Source: Nitrospira japonica (GTDB lineage: Bacteria; Nitrospirota; Thermodesulfovibrionia; UBA6902). Taken from it: 64,000 bases of DNA. The translations under genes and the position numbers were made by a program. The notes beneath the pieces are model-generated. The model ran no database searches. It was given only the letters and a program-made list of their open reading frames with translations, and was not told the origin of the DNA. Of this stretch, positions 7,574 to 20,919 are shown in pieces. Position 1 is the stretch's first letter. Each line of letters opens with the position of its first letter. The stretch covers positions 1 through 64,000 of the forward strand of contig DYJL01000010.1 in assembly GCA_020723105.1 (NCBI GenBank), written 5' to 3'.

Positions 7574-9232
7574 ATGAGCATTGAATATTCAGTAACCCCC
7601 GAAGGAGAACGCTTTCCACTGCCTGTACCGGAAGATTATAAAAAGGAATTCAACCGCCTGAAAAAAGAGATAGCAAGGCAGAAACAATTAAACCGTGAGA
7701 TAGTAGTAGTCATGGGTGTGGGCTTTGTCGGTGTTGCTATGGCGGCTGTTATTGCAGACACCGTAGATTCAAAGGGAAAGCCTTCCAAATTTGTCGTTGG
7801 CATGCAAAGACCAAGTATAAGGAGTTACTGGAAAATACCTGTGCTTAACAGAGGAATATCTCCTGTTATATCTGAAGATCAGGAACTGTCACCGATGATT
7901 AAAAGGTGTGTTCTGGACAAAAAAACACTCACCGCTACATTTGTATATGAAGTCCTCTCGCTGGCTGATGTGGTTGTTGTGGACATTCAGTGTGACTATC
8001 TCAAGGAATCTCTTGGTAATGTGCATAACGGACATGCTGATATGTCACCGCTCGAAGAATCCCTCTCAATAATGGCAGAACATATTACACCGGACACTCT
8101 CGTCCTCATTGAAACTACCGTCGCTCCCGGAACTACTGAACAGATAGCTTACCCTATAATAAAGAAGGTTTTTCAGAAACGAGGCATCAAGAAAGACCCT
8201 CTCCTGGCCCACAGTTTTGAAAGAGTAATGCCGGGTAAGAATTATGTTGCAAGCATACGTGATTTCTGGCGTGTATGCAGCGGCATTAACAAACAGGCGC
8301 GTAACCGGGTTGTAAGGTTTCTCAATGAAGTGATTAATACGAAAGATTATCCCCTGACAGTACTTGACAAGCCGATAGAGTCAGAAACAGCAAAGATAAT
8401 AGAAAACAGTTTCCGCGCCACTATCCTTGCATTTCTTGATGAATGGAGTCTGTTTGCAGAACGTAATGGCGTAGACCTGATAAAAGTCATCAATGCCATC
8501 AAGGCCCGTCCGACTCACAGCAACATTATTTTCCCGGGGCCTGGTATCGGCGGTTATTGTCTGCCGAAAGACGGAGGACTTGGGGTCTGGGCCTACAAGC
8601 ATATCCACGGTTTTGAAGATGATATTTTTAAAATAACGCCTCTTGCTATAAATATTAATGATACCCGCGCCCTTCATGTGGCACAGCTTACACGCGATGC
8701 CCTGAGAAATATGAGCAGGCCTATTGCAGCAGCAGATATACTTGTTCTTGGAGCTTCTTACAGGGAAGATGTCGGCGACACCAGATACAGCGGTTCTGAG
8801 TTAATAGTGAGGAAATTGACTGAAATGGGAGCTGAGTTAAAGGTGCACGATCCGTATCTGACTCATTGGTGGGAGTTTGAACGGCAGGATACCTACCCCA
8901 AAAAAGGATACAGCATGTCCAGGTTTTTCCACAATCAGGAGAAACTCTCGAATCTGACAATAGAACCAAACCTCACGAAGGCTTTAAAGGGAGCTGACGC
9001 AATTATTCTTGCAGTCAGGCATAAACAATATCTGGAACTTACTCCTGATGAAATAGTAAAAAAGGCAGGCAACACGGTAGCAGTTATAGATTGTTTCGGG
9101 ATACTGGATGACGACAAAATCCGCAGATACTTTGAACTTGGCTGCGAGGTAAAGGGGTTAGGCCGCGGCCACGTAAGAAGGATAAAGGATGAAGTGAGAA
9201 TGCAGCAGATGAAGGGAAGAAAAGGAAAATAA
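7574..9232 (+). CDS. Nucleotide-sugar (UDP-glucose/GDP-mannose family) dehydrogenase
   Basis: This oxidises a nucleotide sugar to the uronate with NAD, probably for cell-surface polysaccharide. The NAD-binding Rossmann motif VMGVGFVGVAMAAVIAD lies near residue 46, SETAKIIENSFRA near 270, and the catalytic cysteine in GPGIGGYCLPKDGG near 325. A C-terminal UDP-binding domain (ILVLGASYREDVGDTRYS) follows. At 552 residues it is well above the usual 420-450, owing to an N-terminal extension of about 40 residues and inserts such as FVVGMQRPSIRSYWK. The exact substrate (UDP-glucose, UDP-ManNAc or UDP-GlcNAc) cannot be told. No sugar-pathway neighbours are present. Confidence 0.85.
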   Translation: MSIEYSVTPEGERFPLPVPEDYKKEFNRLKKEIARQKQLNREIVVVMGVGFVGVAMAAVIADTVDSKGKPSKFVVGMQRPSIRSYWKIPVLNRGISPVISEDQELSPMIKRCVLDKKTLTATFVYEVLSLADVVVVDIQCDYLKESLGNVHNGHADMSPLEESLSIMAEHITPDTLVLIETTVAPGTTEQIAYPIIKKVFQKRGIKKDPLLAHSFERVMPGKNYVASIRDFWRVCSGINKQARNRVVRFLNEVINTKDYPLTVLDKPIESETAKIIENSFRATILAFLDEWSLFAERNGVDLIKVINAIKARPTHSNIIFPGPGIGGYCLPKDGGLGVWAYKHIHGFEDDIFKITPLAININDTRALHVAQLTRDALRNMSRPIAAADILVLGASYREDVGDTRYSGSELIVRKLTEMGAELKVHDPYLTHWWEFERQDTYPKKGYSMSRFFHNQEKLSNLTIEPNLTKALKGADAIILAVRHKQYLELTPDEIVKKAGNTVAVIDCFGILDDDKIRRYFELGCEVKGLGRGHVRRIKDEVRMQQMKGRKGK

Positions 9233-9234
9233 TC

Positions 9235-9740
9235 TTACTTGTACCTCTTCACCTCAAACCGGTAAAGCTCTATGGGTTCGCCAAGATAAATCCCTGCTTT
9301 CATGGATGCTATGCTGATCTGCTCGTCAACTGAATCAACTCCTTCAAGATCCGGCAGGAGGAGCCCCCGGCGTTCGCCGCTTTTAACAATAACACCATAT
9401 TTTTTAGGATCCAGAAGCTTCTTGCCAGAAATTTTCTCGGGCGCTGTCAGCACATCAACAGAATATTCAAGGTCACTTAGCTCGCCGGTACTTACCGGCG
9501 GGAATCTTGGGTCCTGCGTAGCAGCGCTTATGGCATTTTGTATGATTTCACAGGCCACATTTTCGGTCGTGTCTGAAAACGTGCCAATACAGCCTCTCAA
9601 CTGGTCTTTCTTTTTAAGGGAAACAAATACGCCGGCCTTTTGAGACATTTCAGGGGTAAGTTCTGCGGGAAGAGAGATAATCTTTTTTTCACGGACATAC
9701 TGTTCAACGGTTTGCTTTGCAAGTATTACAAGAGGATGCA
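9235..9740 (-). CDS. AMMECR1 domain protein (AmmeMemoRadiSam protein A-like)
   Basis: The protein is a single AMMECR1 domain of about 168 residues with the conserved LRGCIGTF motif near residue 50 and TQDPRFPPV near 92. The family is associated with Memo and a radical-SAM enzyme in an uncharacterised system; neither partner is next to it here. I use the ATG at 9740; an upstream in-frame TTG at 9747 falls in an inverted repeat and has no ribosome site. It converges, with a 2-bp gap, on the sugar dehydrogenase. Its biochemical function is not known. Confidence 0.85.
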
Positions 9741-9746
9741 TATACA

Positions 9747-9811
9747 AGTGTCAGTGAATAGTGCCCATGTCAGTAAAGAAAAAACAGACACTCTCAACTG
9801 ACACTGACACT
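9747..9811. repeat. Inverted repeat with tandem GACACT units
   Basis: AGTGTCAGTG (9747-9756) is complementary to CACTGACACT (9802-9811). The right arm also reads as a tandem ACTGACACTGACACTG. It fills the gap between the polyprenyl synthase and AMMECR1 genes and may terminate or attenuate leftward transcription. Confidence 0.6.
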
Positions 9812-9815
9812 GTTC

Positions 9816-10796
9816 TTATTTTCTCCTTTTCAATGCATAATCTGAAATGGTGAGCAGGGACGTTTTTTCCATGGAATCCCTAAATATATCAAGCTCAGAC
9901 CTGGCTTCAGTCATCAGGACATAGGCCCTATCATAGGACTTTTTGATGGATCCGTGCTTGTCAAGCAGTCTCTGTATATCGAGCAGATATTCCTCTGTCT
10001 TGTTTTCAGCCATGATTATCCTCTTTATCTTTTCTGCTTCATCGCCCTCAGCATCTTTCAACAGATATATGAGGGGAAGGGTCATCTTGCCTTCTTCAAG
10101 GTCTTTGCCAAGACGTTTTCCAAGGGATTTCTCTTCCGCCATGTAATCAAGGACATCGTCTACTATCTGAAAGGCATAACCAAATTTTAATCCGAAAGAG
10201 GCCAGGGCGTCTTCTTCTTCCTTTGTCGCATTACCCAGCACGGCCCCGCCTTTGCAAGCCGCTGACATGAGGATGGCTGTTTTGCCCTGAATAATTTTCA
10301 TATAGTCTTCCTCTGTCATGTCGGGATTGCCTTTTTTACTGAGCTGCACCAGTTCGCCCTCGCTCATTTTTGCTGTAGCGGTGCAGAGGGCATCCATGAT
10401 ATTCTGACGCTTGAGCAGGTTTGCAAGGCGTAACGCATTTGCATAAAGGAAGTCGCCCACAAGTATTACGACCTGATTGCCGAATAGGGAATGCGCTGCA
10501 GGTCGTCCTCTCCTTAAATTTGCACCGTCTACTACATCATCATGAATCAATGATGCGGCATGTATGAATTCCACGCTGCTGGCCAGGGTGCTGACCTGAT
10601 CTCCTCTCATTCCAAACAGTCTTGAGCACAGGATAGCGAGAACGGGCCGGATACGTTTTCCGCCGCTTGAAAACAGATGGTTCCCAACGGCTGATATGGC
10701 AGGTGCAACAGTCTTCAGCGTCTCGTTTATCTTTTCTTCTGCTAAAGCGAGATCTTCTTTGTAATATTCCCAGATGTTTTCGATGGTGGTTTGCAT
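9816..10796 (-). CDS. trans-polyprenyl diphosphate synthase
   Basis: This extends isoprenyl diphosphates to the side chain of a quinone, probably menaquinone given mqnA at 47.3 kb. The first aspartate-rich motif is LIHDDVVDGANLRRGRPA near residue 84, the second is FQIVDDVLDY near 210, and the GKDLEEGKMTLP motif follows. The 326-residue length fits octaprenyl/solanesyl-type synthases (IspB/HepT group); chain length cannot be read directly. The start is set at the ATG 10796 because the more upstream in-frame codon is a TTG with no ribosome site. It lies 19 bp after mtnA, likely the same transcript. Confidence 0.9.
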   Translation of the reverse strand: MQTTIENIWEYYKEDLALAEEKINETLKTVAPAISAVGNHLFSSGGKRIRPVLAILCSRLFGMRGDQVSTLASSVEFIHAASLIHDDVVDGANLRRGRPAAHSLFGNQVVILVGDFLYANALRLANLLKRQNIMDALCTATAKMSEGELVQLSKKGNPDMTEEDYMKIIQGKTAILMSAACKGGAVLGNATKEEEDALASFGLKFGYAFQIVDDVLDYMAEEKSLGKRLGKDLEEGKMTLPLIYLLKDAEGDEAEKIKRIIMAENKTEEYLLDIQRLLDKHGSIKKSYDRAYVLMTEARSELDIFRDSMEKTSLLTISDYALKRRK

Positions 10797-10815
10797 GTTT
10801 ATCAATTATTCATTG

Positions 10816-11880
10816 CTAAGTTGCTTTCAGCATGAAAGCAGATAAATCCACATCCTTCTCATTTAGTTTATGTAAATCCTCAGGCCTGAAGACTCCCTTT
10901 TCAGTAATTATACCAGTTATATATTTTGCAGGGGTAACATCAAACGCAAGGTTTCGCACTTTTACTCCCTCAGGAGCAATATGACATTCAAATATATGTG
11001 TCACTTCTTCTGAACCGCGCTCTTCGATAGGGATGAGTTCTCCATTTGGAATTGAGAAATCAATGCTGCTTAAAGGCGCGGCCACATAAAATGGAACACC
11101 ATTTTCTTTGCACAGCACGGCAAGAGAGTAGGTGCCTATCTTGTTTGCAACATCACCGTTTGCAACGGTCCTGTCAGTGCCGACGATGGCCAGATTTATC
11201 TCTCCTTTTCGCAGAAGGGCTCCTGCAGTATTATCAGTAATCAAAGTTACGGGGATATTATCTTCCATGAGTTCCCATGCTGTCAAACGGCAGCCCTGCA
11301 GTACAGGCCTGGTTTCATCGGCGATAACCTGTATTTTTTTCCCCTGCTCCACAGCTACCCGTATCGGAGCAGTAGCGGTCCCGTATCCGCCGGTTGCAAG
11401 AGAGCCGGCATTGCAATGAGTGATGACAGTGTCTCCATCCTTTATAAACTGTGCGCCCCACCTGCCGATAGCCTTATTTATTTCTATATCTTCCTGAAGA
11501 ATTTTGAGGGACTCTTCAATCAGTAAGGCTTTTAATTTATCAACCGTCTGATCCTTTCTTTCCGTCAGGAATAATTTAATCCTCTCAACAGCCCATTGAA
11601 TATTTACTGCTGTGGGCCTTGTCAAAAGTAAAGTTTGAAAGACATGGTTCAGCCCTTTCATCAGATCATTAAAGTTGTTCGCCTTGATCTCCTGCGCTCC
11701 AAGCGCTATGCCCATTGCAGCAGCTATCCCGATGGCCGGCGCCCCGCGTATCCAGAGTTTTTTTATCCCCTCGGCAACCATTTCGTAATCTGTGCAGTCT
11801 ATGTATTTAACTTCTCTCGGGAGGCGGCTCTGATCAATCATCCGCACCTTGCCATTAACCCATTCGATTGTTTTTACCAT
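10816..11880 (-). CDS. mtnA: S-methyl-5-thioribose-1-phosphate isomerase
   Basis: It isomerises methylthioribose-1-phosphate to the ribulose form in methionine salvage. The 354-residue protein has the eIF2B-like fold markers RGAPAIGIAAAMGIALG near residue 45, the catalytic cysteine in THCNAGSLATGGYGTA near 160, and the catalytic aspartate in IVGTDRTVANGDVANKIG near 240. GGAG sits 5 bases before the ATG. No other salvage genes (mtnB-D) are adjacent, although metK and ahcY, which handle the same methionine/SAM pool, lie at 18.3-20.9 kb. Some bacteria use MtnA in a shorter salvage route. Confidence 0.93.
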   Translation of the reverse strand: MVKTIEWVNGKVRMIDQSRLPREVKYIDCTDYEMVAEGIKKLWIRGAPAIGIAAAMGIALGAQEIKANNFNDLMKGLNHVFQTLLLTRPTAVNIQWAVERIKLFLTERKDQTVDKLKALLIEESLKILQEDIEINKAIGRWGAQFIKDGDTVITHCNAGSLATGGYGTATAPIRVAVEQGKKIQVIADETRPVLQGCRLTAWELMEDNIPVTLITDNTAGALLRKGEINLAIVGTDRTVANGDVANKIGTYSLAVLCKENGVPFYVAAPLSSIDFSIPNGELIPIEERGSEEVTHIFECHIAPEGVKVRNLAFDVTPAKYITGIITEKGVFRPEDLHKLNEKDVDLSAFMLKAT

Positions 11881-11890
11881 TTATTCTCCT

Positions 11891-13156
11891 TTAACTGATG
11901 AATTTATTCACACCCGGCAATACCATCATAACCAGTAAGGCTGTTGTGAGCACTATCAAAACAACCACTGTGGCCCATGAAATATAATTGTGTCCTTTCG
12001 GATTGATAAAGTCCCCCATGATTTTCCTGTTATTAATAAGCAGCAATGTGAACACAAGCACCGGCGGCAGGAGTATTCCGTTCAATACCGAAGAGAAAAT
12101 CATGATGAAAATCAGGGGCGCTTTTGGGATCAGCACGAGTATTGATGAAATAACAATCAGTGCTGTATATATCCACATGAACTGGGGCGCCTGCTTGAAT
12201 GTCTTATTTATCCCGGCTTCCCATCCCATGGCCTCGCAGATATAGTATGCCGTTGAAAGCGGTACGACAATCGCACCGAGGATAGAGGCATTTGCAAGGC
12301 TGATTGCAAAAAAGAGCGAAGCATATGTGCCGGCAAACGGCTTCAGGGCTATGGCCGCCTCACTGGCTTCCTGTATCCGTATCCCTTGCGGGAAAAGGGT
12401 TGTGGCGCAGGTTGCCATAATGAAGAAGGCGATTATGTTTGTCATCAGGCATCCCAGGATTACGTCAAGTTTTGAGAGTTTGTAATCTTCCATCTTGAGG
12501 CCCTTTTCAGCAATGGACGACTGCAGGTAAAATTGCATCCACGGTGTTATAGTAGTCCCGATAATTGCAATGCTCAGCATAATGAAGTCTGATTCCAGTT
12601 TTATGCTTGGGATGACAGTTTCCCGTAACACTATGCCCCATTCAGGCTTTGCCATGAATCCTGAGAATATATAACCGAGATAAAGCATGCAGGCTACAAG
12701 CAATATGCTTTCTACAATGCGGTAACTGCCTCTTGTAACAAGTATCCAGATAAGAAACGCCCCTGTCGGAACCATAACATATTTACTCAATCCCAGAATC
12801 TCCATGCTTGCGGCCCATCCCGCAAACTCTGCAACAGTGGTCCCGAAATTTGCGACAAGCAGGGTAATCAGCATGAAAAATGCTGCCTTAATCCCGTAAT
12901 GCTCCCTGATGAGATCAGCAAGCCCTTTGCCCGTTACCACGCCCATACGCGCAGCCATTTCCTGGACGATGATGAGGGCTATTGTTGTCGGGATCAGGGT
13001 CCACAGTAATTTATAGCCGTATCGTGCGCCTGCAACTGAGTAGGTGGTAATGCCTGATGCATCGTTATCAATAGTGGCTGTTATAATGCCGGGGCCGATA
13101 ATTGTCAGAAAGAATATGAGACTTTTCCAGCTTGGCAAATGTTTCAGACGTATCAT
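11891..13156 (-). CDS. Nramp-family divalent metal transporter with non-canonical metal site
   Basis: This 421-residue integral membrane protein has about eleven transmembrane spans and aligns to Nramp (GARYGYKLLW after TM1). The two metal-site motifs differ from the canonical ones. The TM1 DPGN position reads DNDA (D30 to A33, followed by SGITTY), so the Asn ligand is lost. The TM6 MPH position reads TPW (T204-W206), so the Met ligand that selects transition metals is lost. Divergent Nramp proteins of this kind include Mg-transporting members (NRMT group). The stop region overlaps nothing, but its 5' end overlaps the upstream MgtE-like sensor gene by 4 bp, suggesting a functional pair. A GAGGAGG site precedes the ATG. 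The transport substrate is inferred, not shown. Confidence 0.85.
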   Translation of the reverse strand: MIRLKHLPSWKSLIFFLTIIGPGIITATIDNDASGITTYSVAGARYGYKLLWTLIPTTIALIIVQEMAARMGVVTGKGLADLIREHYGIKAAFFMLITLLVANFGTTVAEFAGWAASMEILGLSKYVMVPTGAFLIWILVTRGSYRIVESILLVACMLYLGYIFSGFMAKPEWGIVLRETVIPSIKLESDFIMLSIAIIGTTITPWMQFYLQSSIAEKGLKMEDYKLSKLDVILGCLMTNIIAFFIMATCATTLFPQGIRIQEASEAAIALKPFAGTYASLFFAISLANASILGAIVVPLSTAYYICEAMGWEAGINKTFKQAPQFMWIYTALIVISSILVLIPKAPLIFIMIFSSVLNGILLPPVLVFTLLLINNRKIMGDFINPKGHNYISWATVVVLIVLTTALLVMMVLPGVNKFIS

Positions 13157-14412
13157 ACGCTCCTCCTCTTTTTCCTGGATGATGGAGGGAGGAAGATGTC
13201 AATAATATCATCAATTGTTACCATGCCGAGGAGCGCTCCGTCGGCATCAACAACAGGGAGGGCCAGGAGGTTGTATTTTGATATGAGTTCCGCAACAGCC
13301 TGCTGGTTAGTGTCAGGTGAGACTGACTTCAGTTTTGTTTCCATGATATCAGACAGGTGGACTGTTGGCAGCGGCATGAGTAAATCCCTCAGTGATATAA
13401 TGCCGATGAGCTTCTCATCTTTGACTATGAATATATAATAGACATTCTCTACGTTTGGAGCGTCAATCCTGAGTTTCTCGATTGCTTCCTGGACTGTTAA
13501 CTCAGGAGGATAGGCTATAAACTGGTTTGTCATAAGTCCGCCCGCAGTATCTTCTTCATGTGCCAGGAGTTCCTGAATATCCTGTGCTTCATCTTTTTCA
13601 ATGGATTCAAGCAGCTCCTTTGCTTTATCGGATTCCAGGTCTGACAGGAGGTCTGCTGCTTCGTCAGGCGGCATTCTCTCTACTACATCTGTTGCATGGT
13701 CTTTGTCCAGGCTTTCGATGATGGCCCTTTTAACATTTACTTCAAGTTCATGAAGCGCTTCAGCGGCGACATTGGGATCCAGCCCCTTAAACAAGGCCAG
13801 GCCCTGTTCATACGGCACCTTACTGATAATATCTGCAATGTCTGCAGGATGCAGGGCGGAAATCATCTGGCGCGGGACAATGAGCGATATAGTTGTAAGC
13901 CTGGGCTCAAGCGGCTGTATATAGTTCCAGCGAATCAGATTGTGAGGCAATGTCTTTCCAAACACCCTGTAAAATTTTTCACTCTCTCGCTCGATGTTAA
14001 GGCGCCTGAGTATGCCCCTTATGCCGACGTCAACGGCCACCAGGCAGGCATTGCCGTTGAGGCCCTCCAGTTTTACATCATTAACCCTTACAACTTTGGC
14101 TCCGTTTGCATCAACAATCTGTTTGTCAAAAATGTCCCGTGCAATCAGGAGATTGTCTTCAGAAGGTTCGTATTGTTCGACATTTGATGCATAGATATTG
14201 GAAGAAATGATGCGTTTGTTGAAGATGCCTACGTTCTTCCATTCCAGGAGATAACGCTTTTTCTTTTTCTCTATAATAAGCGCAGATAACCAGGGCAGAG
14301 GGTCCCCTTTTATTACAATGAAATCTCTGACAATACCGAGTTCTTCCCCTGTAGGGTCCAAAACAGGCATCTTTATTAATTCGCTGACAAAAACTTCGCC
14401 AAAAAGGGGCAT
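13153..14412 (-). CDS. PRC-barrel / MgtE N-domain / CBS-pair protein without membrane domain
   Basis: This 419-residue soluble protein has two PRC-barrel-like segments (residues about 5-75 and 90-160), then an MgtE N-terminal superhelical domain (ALHPADIADIISKVP near 184, RMPPDEAADLLSDLE near 244), then a CBS pair (from GGLMTNQFIAYPPELTVQEA near 290 to VTIDDIIDIFLPP). In the channel MgtE these two domains bind Mg and close the pore; the five-helix pore domain that should follow is absent, and the protein stops after a basic tail. It overlaps the Nramp-like gene by 4 bp (ATGA). It may act as a separate Mg- or nucleotide-responsive gate for that transporter. GGAG precedes the ATG by 5 bases. 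Confidence 0.85.
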   Translation of the reverse strand: MPLFGEVFVSELIKMPVLDPTGEELGIVRDFIVIKGDPLPWLSALIIEKKKKRYLLEWKNVGIFNKRIISSNIYASNVEQYEPSEDNLLIARDIFDKQIVDANGAKVVRVNDVKLEGLNGNACLVAVDVGIRGILRRLNIERESEKFYRVFGKTLPHNLIRWNYIQPLEPRLTTISLIVPRQMISALHPADIADIISKVPYEQGLALFKGLDPNVAAEALHELEVNVKRAIIESLDKDHATDVVERMPPDEAADLLSDLESDKAKELLESIEKDEAQDIQELLAHEEDTAGGLMTNQFIAYPPELTVQEAIEKLRIDAPNVENVYYIFIVKDEKLIGIISLRDLLMPLPTVHLSDIMETKLKSVSPDTNQQAVAELISKYNLLALPVVDADGALLGMVTIDDIIDIFLPPSSRKKRRSV

Positions 14413-14446
14413 GAGGTCTCCCGAATGCTATATAATAATTCAATCC

Positions 14447-14474
14447 GTAGGGGCGTATTGCAATACGCCCCTAC
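14447..14474. repeat. 28-bp perfect palindrome GTAGGG...CCCTAC (intergenic copy)
   Basis: The half-site GTAGGGGCGTATTG is followed at once by its exact complement. It lies in the 192-bp gap between apbE and the MgtE-like gene. A second copy with a paired base change is inside a coding region at 61301-61328. The rest of the gap (14529-14590) holds GTGTCCGG and a TACGGACACGGAATACGGTCACGGATAC-like tandem, another low-complexity repeat. Confidence 0.85.
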
Positions 14475-14604
14475 CGTGCCTTGAAGTATACCTAAGGGAG
14501 GGAAATTTCGGCAACCAGCGCAATAGTAAATCGTGTCCGGTTAACGTGATCGCAGGTACGGACACGGAATACGGTCACGGATACCGGATTTTAAGTTACG
14601 CTGC

Positions 14605-15669
14605 CTAATTTGCTAACTCATACCCTTTATTCAGGATCTCTATCCTGCCTTTTAAATTTTTTGTAATAAAAACCCTTTTCCGGGAATCCACCAAAATTCC
14701 GTCGAGACCCTTTGAATTGAGAAGCTTCATCCCCTTTTCAGGTCCGAGTATCAGTACAGCCGTATCAATACCGTCTGCCATATATCCTTCAGGGGCCATG
14801 ACGGAAACGCTTATCAAGTCAGATTCTGCGGGATAACCTGTCTTTGGATCAATGATATGGTGGTAGCGTTTGCCGTTTTTTATAAAAAATCTCTGGTAGT
14901 CTCCGGCAGTTGATATGGCGCTGTCTTTTAGATAGAGGCTTGCAAAGATATCTTCCCACGGTTTTTCTGAAGCAGGATTTTCGGGGCGTGGATTCTGAAT
15001 CCCGACCTTCCATGCCTTTCCACTTGTGCTTAAACCATAACCCCTGATATCCCCTGCAATGGCTACAAGCGCTGCTTTTATTCCTTTTGCCTTTATTGCC
15101 TCGACAGCTTTATCGGCTGCATAGCCTTTGGCTACTCCTCCGAGGTCCAGCGCCATGCCTTTTTCTTCCAGATATATTTCTGATGCGGCACTATCTATTT
15201 TTATTTTTTTGTAGTCTACGAGTTTTCGCAGGTTCTCAATTGCGGCTTTGGATGGTATGGAAGGATTGTCAGGCCGCTTTGAAAAGGCCCAGAGTTTTAT
15301 AACAGGCTCGATGGTCGGATCAAATGCGCCATCAGTTATTTTGGAAATACCGATTGTCTTGTCCATCAGGTCTGTTGTTTCCTTGCTGACATGAACAGGC
15401 TTTATTCCGGCAGATTGACTGACTGCGCTGACCTCGCTGTCCGGTGAGAAGTTGTTAAGATAATTATCAAGCTTCTTTATTTCGTCAAATCCGGCTTCGA
15501 TCGCATCTTCTGCTTTTTCTTCCGAGGGACTGACAACCGTTATCGTACAGAATGTGTCCATCAGAACACGGCTTTCCTTGAACATTTGGTCCTGCCGGGA
15601 ACAATTCAGAGCAAAGAGCAAAGAGCAAAGAACAAAGATAATAACCGCCCGACTACAATAATTTTTCAT
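14605..15669 (-). CDS. apbE: FAD:protein FMN transferase, lipoprotein
   Basis: ApbE attaches FMN covalently to Thr residues of exported flavoproteins such as RnfD/RnfG, NqrB/NqrC or FMN-binding reductases. The 354-residue protein begins with a lipoprotein signal (basic start, hydrophobic core, lipobox FALNC with Cys23). Family motifs are [10 protein letters not shown] near 36, [17 protein letters not shown] near 174, IAGDIRGYG near 203 and the metal-binding [11 protein letters not shown] near 294. The signal-peptide core is encoded by four near-identical 7-base units (15609-15636). The start overlaps the uvrA stop (ATGA). The target flavoprotein is not in the window. Confidence 0.92.
15609..15636. 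repeat. Tandem heptamer GAGCAAA encoding the ApbE signal-peptide core
   Basis: Three exact GAGCAAA units and one GAACAAA follow head to tail. On the coding strand they read as the hydrophobic stretch [11 protein letters not shown] of the ApbE signal peptide. Confidence 0.8.
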
Positions 15670-18179
15670 GCTGTCACCTTTTTAAATAATTTATTCTTTA
15701 AAAATGCTCCTGTATACGACTTTGGATTTTTTACAACTTCCTCCGGGGTCCCTTCAGCCACTATCCTGCCTCCCTCCTCCCCGCCTTCTGGTCCCATGTC
15801 AATAATATAGTCAGCGCTCTTGATAATGTCGAGGTTATGTTCGATAACAACAACACTGTTGCCTGCATCCACGAGTTGATTGAGGACCTCAAGAAGCTTC
15901 TGAATATCTATAAAATGAAGACCTGTGGTGGGTTCATCCAGAATATACAGGGTCTTGCCAGTGGACTTTTTACTCAGTTCCCTTGAAAGCTTCACCCTCT
16001 GCGCCTCGCCGCCGGAAAGGGTTGTTGCCGGCTGTCCGAGCTGTATGTATCCGAGGCCTACCTTCTCCAGTGTCGTCAATTTATTTCTGAGCAGGGGAAC
16101 CGCTTCAAAGAATTCAAGCGCCTGTGTGACCGTCATATTCAGTACATCAGAGATATTTTTTCCTTTGTATTTTATTTCAATAGTCTCTTTATTATATCTG
16201 GCGCCTTTGCATGTGTCACAGGGTACGTATAAGTCAGGTAGAAAATGCATTGATACCTTGACAAGCCCGTCGCCTTTGCAAGCCTCGCATCTTCCGCCTG
16301 TGACGTTGAAACTGAATCGGCCTGGTTTATAGCCCCTTACCCTTGAATCAGGGACCTGTGAAAACAAGTCCCTGACGAATGCCAAGACTCCGGTATATGT
16401 CGCAGGATTAGACCGTGGTGTTCTGCCAAGCGGCGCCTGATCAATGTCAATTACCTTGTCAATCTTTTCAATTCCCTCGATGCCTTCATGCCTTCCGGGA
16501 ACCTCAACAGAGGAATAAATTTTCTTTGCAAGCGCTTTATAGAGGATTTCAAGTATCAGGGTGCTTTTTCCCGATCCGGACACGCCGGTAATACATGTAA
16601 AGACTCCGAGAGGCAGCCTGACGTTTATATTTTTCAGATTAAATTCCTGAGCCCCCCTCAGTGTAATAAAATCTTTTGGTTTTCTTCTCTGAACCGGAAC
16701 AGGTATAGCGAGCTGTCCGCTTAGAAAAGACCCTGTGACAGATTTCCTGTTATTGATGATGTCCTGCAAATTGCCCTCAGCGACTATTGAACCGCCGTGT
16801 ACACCCGCTCCAGGGCCCATGTCAATTATATGATTTGCTATTCTCATTGTGTCCTCATCATGTTCAACAACAAGGACGGTATTTCCCATCTCTCTTAATC
16901 TGCAGAGGCTTTCAAGCAGCTTACTGTGGTCTCTTGGGTGCAAGCCAATACTCGGTTCATCAAATATGTATAACACACCTGTAAGAGAAGAACCGATTTG
17001 CGTTGCAAGCTTGATGCGCTGCGCTTCTCCGCTGGAAAGGGTCCTTGCGGGCCTGTTTAAGGCTAGATACCCAAGTCCCACTTTATCAAGGAAGTACAAT
17101 CGTTCCTTTGTCTCTTTTAAGATTTTTGATGCAATTATCTGCTCGGTCTTTGAAAGTTTCAGATTCTCTATAAATAAGATAACGTCTTTAATAGGCCTGG
17201 CAGATAACTCCCCAATGCTGAGATTGCTGATTTTGACAGACAGCGCCTCTTTTCTCAACCTGAACCCGTTACAGAAAGGACATATTTTAAGCATGCTGAT
17301 ATTTTCATCAGTGTCTTCACTTGCGTTTTTGAATCCAAGCCCCCGGCATTTTGGACAGGCGCCATAAGGGCTGTTAAATGAGAAAAATCTGGGGCTGATT
17401 TCAGGATAGTTTATGCCGCATTTTGAACAGGCGAGTTTTGTGCTGAAGAAGAGGTCTTTTCCCTCATCAATGATGTTGATCATTACTACATCAGTCAGGC
17501 TGGTAGCAACCGCAACAGCATTTGAGAGATGTTTATCAATTCCGGATTTGATAATCAGCCGATCGATAACAATATCAATATTATGTCTCTTATGTTTGTT
17601 TAATTTTATTTCTTTTGTGATATCAGTCAGTTCGCCGTCTATTCGGGCTCGTATAAACCCTCTTCTCCGGGCTTCCTGCAATTCTTTCCTGTATTCGCCC
17701 TTTCTGCCTATTATGATTGGCGAGAGCACCTGGATTCGCGTGCCTTCAGGCAAACCGTTTATCAGTTCAATAATCTGCTGTGTGCCTTGAGCCGCAATGG
17801 CGCTTCCGCACTGATAGCATTTCAATCTGCCAATCCTTGTGTATGCCACCCTGAGATAGTCGTATATCTCGGTAATTGTGCCGACGGTTGAACGCAGGTT
17901 TTTTGCAGTTACAGTTTGCTCTATTGCAATAGCAGGGGAGAGCCCTTCAATAGAATCTACATCCGGTTTTTGTAGCTGGTCCAGGAACTGCCTTGCATAT
18001 GCAGAGAGACTTTCAACATACCGCCTTTGTCCCTCTGCATAAATCGTATCGAATGCAAGGGAAGATTTGCCCGAGCCTGACGGCCCTGTAATAACTACAA
18101 TACTGTCACGCGGTATTGATACATCTATATTTTTAAGGTTGTGTACCCTTGCGCCTTTGATTATGATATGGTTAAGCAT
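15666..18179 (-). CDS. uvrA: Excinuclease ABC subunit A, short form lacking most of the insertion domain
   Basis: UvrA recognises DNA damage and loads UvrB in nucleotide excision repair. Two ABC ATPase modules are visible: Walker [20 protein letters not shown] near residue 32 and [16 protein letters not shown] in the second half. Zinc modules include [18 protein letters not shown] with CPKCRGLGF, and [10 protein letters not shown] with CDTCKG. The protein is 837 residues against the usual 930-950. The missing part lies between CPKCRGLGF and CPFCNGFRL, where only about 16 residues remain instead of roughly 100, i.e. the insertion domain. The first signature motif is LSSGEAQRI rather than LSGGEAQRI; the second is normal. 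The chosen start (18179) matches where family similarity begins; an in-frame ATG exists at 18221. Confidence 0.92.
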
Positions 18180-18267
18180 AGTTGTTTTGCAGATTGTAAG
18201 AATTTTTTTACTATAACCCATAAGAACGATGCGCTGTCAAACAGTCTTATAACAATATTAAACTTTC

Positions 18268-18296
18268 TTGACAATAAGATAGAAAAAATTATTTAA
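18268..18296 (+). promoter_or_regulatory. Probable sigma70-type promoter for metK-ahcY
   Basis: A perfect -35 TTGACA (18268-18273) is followed after 17 bases by ATTTAA (18291-18296). Transcription would begin close to the metK ribosome site. No SAM riboswitch fold was recognised in this 140-bp gap. Confidence 0.55.
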
Positions 18297-18327
18297 TAAA
18301 AGACATTTACTTTATGGAGGCATGAAA

Positions 18328-19476
18328 ATGAAAAGAAGGAATTATCTGTTTACTTCCGAGTCTGTTACCGAAGGGCACCCCGATAAAATTGCTGATCAGA
18401 TCTCCGATGCAATTCTTGATACGATTATAGCAGAGGATCCGAAGGCCCGGGTTGCCTGTGAAACAATGCTAACGACCGGTCTCGCATTTGTTGCAGGGGA
18501 AATTACAACCAACTGTTATGCCGATATCCCCTCAATCATAAGAGAGACTATAAGAGATATAGGATATACAAGGGCCAAATATGGATTTGATTATGAGACG
18601 TGCGCAGTAATTACTTCCATACACGAACAGTCTCCTGATATAGCGATGGGTGTTGATACCGGAGGCGCAGGTGATCAGGGACTGATGTTTGGATTTGCAT
18701 GCAACGAGACCCCTGAACTGATGCCGATGCCGATAATGCTGGCCCATAAGCTTGCAATGAAGTTAACCGAGGTGAGGAAAAAAGATATCCTGAACTATCT
18801 CAGGCCAGATGGAAAGACACAGGTAACCATTGAATATAAAGACGGCGTACCTTACCGGGTCAATACCATAGTTGTTTCTTCGCAGCACAGTCCTGAAATT
18901 ACCCTGAAAGAAATGAAAGAGGACATTATAGAGAAAGTCATAAAGCCTGTTATCCCCAAGAAACTCCTCGATGAAGAACATGTCATATACCACATTAATC
19001 CAACAGGAAGGTTTGTAGTAGGCGGCCCGATGGGAGATACGGGGCTGACAGGAAGGAAAATAATAGTTGACAGTTATGGCGGAGTTGGAAGTCACGGCGG
19101 AGGATGTTTCTCAGGAAAGGATCCGTCGAAGGTGGACAGGTCTGCTGCTTACATGGCGAGATATGTGGCAAAGAATATCGTTGCTGCCGGACTTGCTGAC
19201 AGGGCTGAACTGCAAATAGCATATGCAATTGGAGTTCCTGAGCCTGTTTCCATACTTGTTAATACCGCAAACACAGGAAAAATCCCTGACACTGAGATTG
19301 AAAAATTAGTGAGGAAGTATTTCAATTTAACACCTGCCGCAATCATAAAGAAACTTAATTTAAGAAGGCCGATCTTTAAAAAGACTGCCGCATACGGTCA
19401 TTTTGGAAGGAACCTGCCTGAATTCACATGGGAAAAAACAGATATGGCAGAGACTCTTAAAAAAGCTGCAAAGTAA
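18328..19476 (+). CDS. metK: S-adenosylmethionine synthetase
   Basis: It makes SAM from methionine and ATP. The 382-residue protein has [20 protein letters not shown] near residue 8, [12 protein letters not shown] near 117, and the P-loop-like [22 protein letters not shown] near 255. Two ATGs are in frame. GGAGG ends one base before the ATG at 18322 but 7 bases before the ATG at 18328, so the second is the likely start. It is followed 12 bp later by ahcY, so SAM production and removal of the methylation product are co-transcribed. Confidence 0.96.
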
Positions 19477-19488
19477 GGAGATAATTAT

Positions 19489-20919
19489 ATGACAATTGCA
19501 TCACTGCAAAATAGCGCAACTGACTATAAGGTTGCTGATATTAGTCTGGCAGAGTGGGGAAGGAAAGAGATTGAGATTGCTGAAAAAGAAATGCCAGGCC
19601 TCATGGCAATAAGAGAAAAATATAAGGATGCCAAGCCGCTTAAAGGAGTCAGAATCTCCGGTTCCTTGCACATGACTATCCAGACGGCAGTATTAATTGA
19701 GACACTTGTTGATTTGGGAGCCAGTGTGAGATGGGCCAGTTGCAACATCTTCTCTACGCAGGATCATGCAGCCGCGGCTATTGCAAAGGCCGGCATACCT
19801 GTTTTTGCTTGGAAGGGCGAGACCCTGGAAGATTACTGGTGGTGTACATTGAAAGCTTTGACCTTCCCTGATGGAAAAGGTCCCCAATTGGTTGTTGACG
19901 ACGGCGGCGATGCTACCTTGCTCATTCATCGCGGATACGAGGCAGAAAATAATTCTGCAATTCTCGATCAGCCGACAGACAATAAAGAACTTCAAATTAT
20001 TAACAACACGCTGAAAGCTCAGCTAAAGGAAGACAATCAGTGGTGGCACAAAACAGTAAAAGAATGGAAGGGCGTCAGTGAAGAAACCACTACAGGCGTG
20101 CACAGATTATATGAAATGATGAAGAACGGCACCCTGCTGGTTCCAGCAATCAACGTTAATGATTCTGTAACCAAATCAAAATTTGATAATCTCTACGGCT
20201 GCCGGGAATCTTTACCGGATGGAATCAAGAGGGCCACGGACGTTATGCTTGCAGGTAAGGTTGCAGTTGTCTGCGGTTACGGAGACGTGGGAAAAGGCTC
20301 TGCAAAGTCCCTGAGGGCCTTTGGCGCAAGGGTGATTGTCACAGAGATAGATCCCATTTGTGCTCTGCAGGCTGCAATGGAAGGTTATGAAGTCAACACA
20401 GTAGAAAATACCCTCGGCGAGGCGGATATTTATGTAACCGCAACGGGCAATATGGATATCATCACAATTAACCATATGGCAAAAATGAAGGATCAGGCAA
20501 TTGTCTGCAACATCGGACATTTTGATAATGAAATACAGATCGAAAAGTTGAACGCATATCCGGGTATTAAGAAGATCAATATCAAACCGCAGGTTGATAA
20601 GTATCTGTTCCCTGAGGGACATACTATTTTCATTCTTGCTGAAGGAAGACTTGTAAATCTCGGCTGCGCAACCGGACATCCTTCATTTGTCATGTCCAAC
20701 AGTTTCACAAATCAGACCCTGGCACAGATAGACCTCTGGAGGAACAGGGACCTTTATGAAAAGAAAGTATATACACTTCCCAAACATCTTGATGAGGAAG
20801 TTGCAAGGCTCCATCTGGAAAAAATAGGGGTCAAGCTTACAAAACTTTCTAAGGCCCAGGCAGATTATATCGGAGTCACGGTTGAAGGGCCTTACAAATC
20901 TGAACATTACAGGTATTAA
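19489..20919 (+). CDS. ahcY: Adenosylhomocysteinase
   Basis: It hydrolyses S-adenosylhomocysteine to adenosine and homocysteine, relieving inhibition of methyltransferases. The 476-residue protein shows [18 protein letters not shown] near residue 85, the substrate-binding [11 protein letters not shown] near 137, the NAD-binding site [21 protein letters not shown] near 259, and the C-terminal [20 protein letters not shown] with the NAD-contacting Lys/Tyr pair. Length and motifs are normal. It ends 49 bp before the converging mnmA, with a strong hairpin between. Confidence 0.96.

Follow-up and report, generated by a model that had tools for sequence, protein, structure and literature searches.

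The window, a stretch of 64,000 nucleotides of Nitrospira japonica DNA (contig DYJL01000010.1 of assembly GCA_020723105.1), carries on its minus strand two intact open reading frames, of which the first encodes a stand-alone MgtE-type sensor protein (13153–14412, 419 aa) and the second an NRMT-type Nramp transporter (11891–13156, 421 aa). The two genes overlap by 4 bp (13153–13156, minus strand), as stated in the initial annotation, and this arrangement suggests translational coupling. The region on the 3′ side of the NRMT gene (9235–11880) contains mtnA, encoding methylthioribose-1-phosphate isomerase, a polyprenyl synthetase gene and an AMMECR1 gene; mtnA and the polyprenyl synthetase gene also flank the sensor-NRMT pair in approximately 20 of the retrieved relatives. 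The source genome encodes one CorA and one Nramp, with no second Nramp besides the NRMT of the window, and no match to the MgtE pore (PF01769) was found anywhere in it. A search of positions 9000–20000 of the window identified no M-box or other Rfam element.

The product of 11891–13156 matches the Nramp family (PF01566, E = 1.5e-99), and its best relative in the PDB is EleNRMT of Eggerthella lenta (7qia), which scores 375 bits compared with approximately 103 bits for the next Nramp and approximately 100 bits for Mn/Fe Nramps. Alignment with EleNRMT and 14 relatives places the metal site of TM1 at D32-A-S-G35 (13052–13063, minus strand), in which D32 and G35 are invariant in all of these proteins, and that of TM6 at T201-T-I-T204 (12545–12556, minus strand), which is followed by P-W at the position where proton-coupled Nramps carry P-H. 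The proton-acceptor histidines of TM6b are replaced, the first by tryptophan and the second by a non-protonatable residue. The initial annotation was correct in comparing the protein with divergent, Mg-transporting Nramps and in reading M to T and H to W in TM6; the change from DPGN to DNDA that it proposed for TM1 was two residues out of register. The resulting motif, DxxG-TxxT, conforms to the DxxG-TxxA/T signature of the NRMTs (PMC8806188), and the product is, on the basis of its sequence, an NRMT, a member of the Mg-transporting branch of the Nramp (SLC11) family. It shares with EleNRMT the fold, the DxxG-TxxA/T site and the lack of the proton-acceptor histidines, and differs in having TxxT instead of TxxA; EleNRMT was studied without a partner protein. 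Because EleNRMT transports both Mg2+ and Mn2+ without H+ coupling (PMC8806188), Mg2+ is a likely substrate of the window NRMT, although other substrates are possible.

The sensor protein consists of a PRC-barrel domain (residues 5–69; 14206–14400; PF05239, 3e-11), an MgtE_N domain (residues 187–288; 13549–13854; PF03448, 2e-25), to which the sites of MgtE could be mapped, and two CBS domains according to Pfam, the second of which comprises residues 354–406 (13195–13353; PF00571), all on the minus strand. The initial description of this partner as the N and CBS domains of MgtE without its pore is accurate: the structures of the MgtE cytosolic domain align to residues 181–407 only, and the protein stops approximately 12 residues past the second CBS domain, so that the plug helix and the five-helix pore (PF01769) are absent. 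The plug acids E258 and D259 of MgtE are likewise missing, and a basic C-terminal tail, LPPSSRKKRRSV (13156–13194, minus strand), occupies the position of the acidic plug helix. PRC barrels had been proposed in the plural; one is detected by Pfam, and a possible second is indicated only by the strands predicted for a relative.

In the alignment to the MgtE of T. thermophilus (2yvx/2zy9), the residues E218, D250 and D254 of the MgtE_N domain and D402 and D405 of the second CBS domain of the sensor correspond to E59, D91, D95, D247 and D250 of MgtE, respectively, which form Mg7 (E59), Mg4 (D91 and D247), Mg6 (D95) and half of Mg5 (D250) (PMC5882242). The sensor thus has in common with MgtE the N domain, the CBS pair and the acids of Mg4, Mg6 and Mg7, lacks the plug helix and pore, and has the PRC domain as its own addition. 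The equivalents of these acids are retained in most of 55 close sensors (E59 in 50/55, D91 in 55/55, D247 in 54/55, D95 in 55/55 and D250 in 51/55). Some are lost in deeper sensor lineages (the D91 and D250 equivalents), and D95 alone is universal (101/101). The ATP-site residues and D226 were rejected as a hallmark of the sensor, since the canonical MgtEs of the phylum likewise differ from T. thermophilus MgtE. In one genome (G109, locus L024, 259–1492), the PRC part of the sensor is encoded in another frame than the N-CBS part; this split may be real, as the C. acetobutylicum sensor is likewise split, or may reflect a frameshift.

The initial annotation had called for a survey of the conservation of the gene pair, and the outcome favors its reading: 148 genomes of the phylum were covered, in which NRMT matches were counted at an identity of at least 48% (n = 49). 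A sensor gene lies directly upstream of the NRMT gene on the same strand in 47 of the 49 (gap, −7 to 496 bp), and the two exceptions are a copy at a contig end (G007) and a fragment of 139 residues (G003). None of the 14 Nramps of 33% identity or less in the same genomes is linked to a sensor. In a second, deeper NRMT type (35–40% identity), a sensor of its own follows the NRMT at approximately 250–285 bp in 6/7 cases; pairs with this reversed gene order are seen at loci L037, L038, L039, L040 and L041. The linkage extends to many phyla, being present, in several gene orders and orientations, in 68 of the 75 evaluable loci in a cross-phylum set of 80; the loci of highest identity that were retrieved belong to the class Thermodesulfovibrionia of Nitrospirota. 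Of the 148 genomes of the phylum, 53 have MgtE-type matches, and in 2 of them these coincide with an NRMT, a near-exclusion that is phylogenetically structured and is therefore not an independent statistic.

The other seven evaluable loci of the cross-phylum set, all with distant NRMTs, have no adjoining sensor. They were considered as an argument against the pairing, which was dropped, because a stand-alone sensor is encoded elsewhere in all seven genomes; six of these unlinked sensors have no Nramp neighbor, and that of G150 adjoins a second, distant NRMT of type 2. At locus L072 (1793–3118), an unlinked NRMT gene adjoins a gene for a divergent CorC/CNNM-like membrane protein, as judged by eye from the translation. 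Among the open reading frames examined, none naturally joins sensor and NRMT in a single chain, and an open frame of 890 aa in G111 was ruled out as such a fusion because the frames of the two genes differ. In at least 12 pairs, the NRMT is in frame with the sensor and separated from it by one stop codon, often TAG, which may be due to chance; examples are loci L070, L074, L075, L085, L088, L105 and L119.

An M-box Mg riboswitch was identified upstream of the sensor-NRMT operon in relatives (loci L119, L121, L074 and L080). Two of the seven genomes with unlinked genes, those of Acididesulfobacillus acetoxydans and Peptococcaceae bacterium CEB3, in which NRMT and sensor genes are widely separated, carry one M-box upstream of the NRMT and another upstream of the sensor (L077 with L138 and L084 with L139). 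Because the M-box was found in a subset only, it is not strictly a defining feature of NrmT-associated MgtE-like proteins.

At two loci of the order, the transporter itself is exchanged. In genome G144, which has no NRMT, the sensor, including its PRC domain, runs on into an MgtE plug and pore to give a protein of 607 aa (PF03448, PF01769), and the fused gene lies between carB and mtnA, the exact spot that is occupied by sensor and NRMT in G155, a genome of the same genus. A match to the MgtE pore of G144 is present in 9 of 120 genomes of the order, and the best two, those of G144 itself and G230, are both fused to a sensor; the G230 fusion is 69% identical to that of G144. The genus-mates of G230, G104 and G126, carry sensor and NRMT, and the two flanks of the G230 locus are approximately 81–95% identical to those of the genus-mates. 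The sensor gene of G230 opens with a block of approximately 90 nt that is 98% identical to the genus-mates, and behind the fused gene stands a remnant of the 3′ end of an NRMT gene (approximately 160 nt, 98% identical to G126), with the stretch between the block and the remnant being foreign. We interpret these loci as cases in which recombination replaced the NRMT in place with an MgtE pore while the type of sensor in front of it stayed the same. An assembly artefact in G144 was considered and is less likely, since G230 provides a second fusion with flanks of its own genus and an NRMT remnant. This putative natural pore swap is the best hint yet that the sensor controls whichever pore accompanies it. 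At the same locus in G134 (L125, 3406–4664), the sensor gene is frameshifted, this NRMT is absent and none separates the sensor gene from mtnA, an apparent joint decay of the two genes. A DNA polymerase IV-like gene (L173, 5953–6981) adjoins the swapped locus of G230, and a similar gene is located beside a type-2 NRMT (L037).

An AF2 model was obtained for the sensor and NRMT of locus L011, joined by stop-codon read-through, from 133 sequences (pLDDT 88.5, pTM 0.71). Its NRMT half resembles EleNRMT (7qia) with a TM score of 0.90, and its N-CBS part superimposes on the Mg-bound cytosolic domain of MgtE with 1.5 Å over 234 columns. A control model of the NRMT with the neighboring enzyme MtnA gave a pTM of 0.60, a modest difference between models that differ in length, and the predicted contact of sensor and NRMT thereby gains weak support.

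The window pair belongs to a kind that has been published: most NrmT genes adjoin a homologue of the MgtE cytoplasmic domain, for which a feedback or chaperone role was proposed (Shin et al., 2014; PMC4072509), so that neither the pairing nor the feedback idea is new. The C. acetobutylicum Ca_c0685 operon and A. capsulatum ACP2976-2977 of that study likewise place an Nramp-related transporter beside a homologue of the N-terminal cytoplasmic part of MgtE, and some of those operons carry an M-box, whereas the window pair has none. The two NrmTs of C. acetobutylicum transport without a partner, and NRMTs function alone in B. subtilis; the A. capsulatum NrmT rescued Mn uptake and, only in part, growth on Mg, its MgtE-like partner gave no gain, and the role of the MgtE-like gene was unknown as of 2014 (PMC4072509). 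No later work on the partner was found in the literature covered, which was largely that of non-subscription journals. The points that go beyond Shin et al. (2014), in the sources consulted, are the member from Nitrospirota, the PRC domain, the missing plug, the retained Mg-site acids, the M-boxes on both unlinked halves and the sensor-MgtE fusions that replace the NRMT; as far as could be found, the pore swap and the split M-boxes are new evidence on the role of the partner.

The initial annotation had read the pair as a two-component transporter in which a mobile sensor gates a different pore. This reading is strengthened by the M-boxes, the linkage, the co-occurrence of the genes when unlinked and the pore exchange, and is upheld in part on genomic grounds; on the other side, the A. 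capsulatum pair behaved as a Mn transporter and gained nothing from the partner. That co-expression does not decide the matter, because a brake is not expected to improve rescue. We consider it fairly probable that the two genes constitute one Mg2+ uptake system, in which an uncoupled importer is feedback-inhibited by a detached MgtE-type sensor. The NRMT would import Mg2+, and probably also Mn2+, without proton coupling and driven by the membrane potential, and the PRC-MgtE_N-CBS protein would sense Mg2+ for it in the cytoplasm. When free Mg2+ is high, the N and CBS domains would adopt the compact, closed conformation of Mg-bound MgtE, and in this state the sensor would dock onto the NRMT from the cytoplasmic side and stop uptake, as the same module does on the MgtE pore. 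We infer three parts of this scheme: that Mg2+ is the main substrate in the source organism, that the sensor binds the NRMT directly and that its control is inhibitory. Mg/Mn carriage without H+ coupling, as in EleNRMT, would overload a cell that had no brake, and an uncoupled importer facing a negative membrane potential would thus presumably need one.

Other accounts of the pair were weighed against feedback inhibition by Mg2+. The pair could handle Mn2+, or both metals, with a sensor that reads Mn2+ and controls its entry, given the Mn uptake restored by A. capsulatum NrmT (PMC4072509), the Mn carried by EleNRMT (PMC8806188) and the lack of another Nramp in the source genome; we regard this as unlikely in view of the M-box Mg riboswitches that relatives carry on pair operons and, where the genes are unlinked, on each of the two, the replacement of the NRMT by a Mg pore, the Mg-site residues of MgtE retained in the sensor and the near-exclusion of NRMT and MgtE-type genes across the phylum. 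The pore replacement also bears on the proposal that the sensor serves to chaperone or buffer Mg, or has ribosomes, regulators or other molecules as its targets, and is merely co-regulated with a transporter that it does not contact. In two genomes, the sensor forms a single polypeptide with an MgtE pore, encoded at the NRMT locus, and its N-CBS part would there act as the known gate; in G134 the loss of the NRMT goes with a sensor frameshift; hence this proposal, a chaperone role having been raised by Shin et al. (PMC4072509), appears rather unlikely, even though the sensor is soluble and always ends past the second CBS domain without a plug, NRMTs work without it both in vitro and in B. subtilis, and unlinked copies exist.

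A still less probable account casts the sensor as a subunit required for activation or targeting, whose PRC domain docks the transporter and which exerts no Mg-dependent brake. The near-absolute co-occurrence of the two genes and a PRC domain that is not part of canonical MgtE matches would fit such a subunit, but EleNRMT and the two C. acetobutylicum NrmTs transport alone, and the conserved Mg-binding acids suggest sensing.

Feedback inhibition of the NRMT by a detached sensor leads to a broader and more tentative idea, to which we give somewhat less than even credence, namely that PRC-N-CBS is a portable Mg2+ sensor for two unrelated folds, which brakes the LeuT-fold NRMT when free-standing and the MgtE channel when fused, the pores having been exchanged in place by evolution. 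If this is true, feedback gating of Mg2+ entry would be a detachable module that serves two unrelated membrane folds. The pore swap, the Mg-site acids and the split M-boxes turn the question raised in 2014 about the MgtE-like partner into one that is directly testable.
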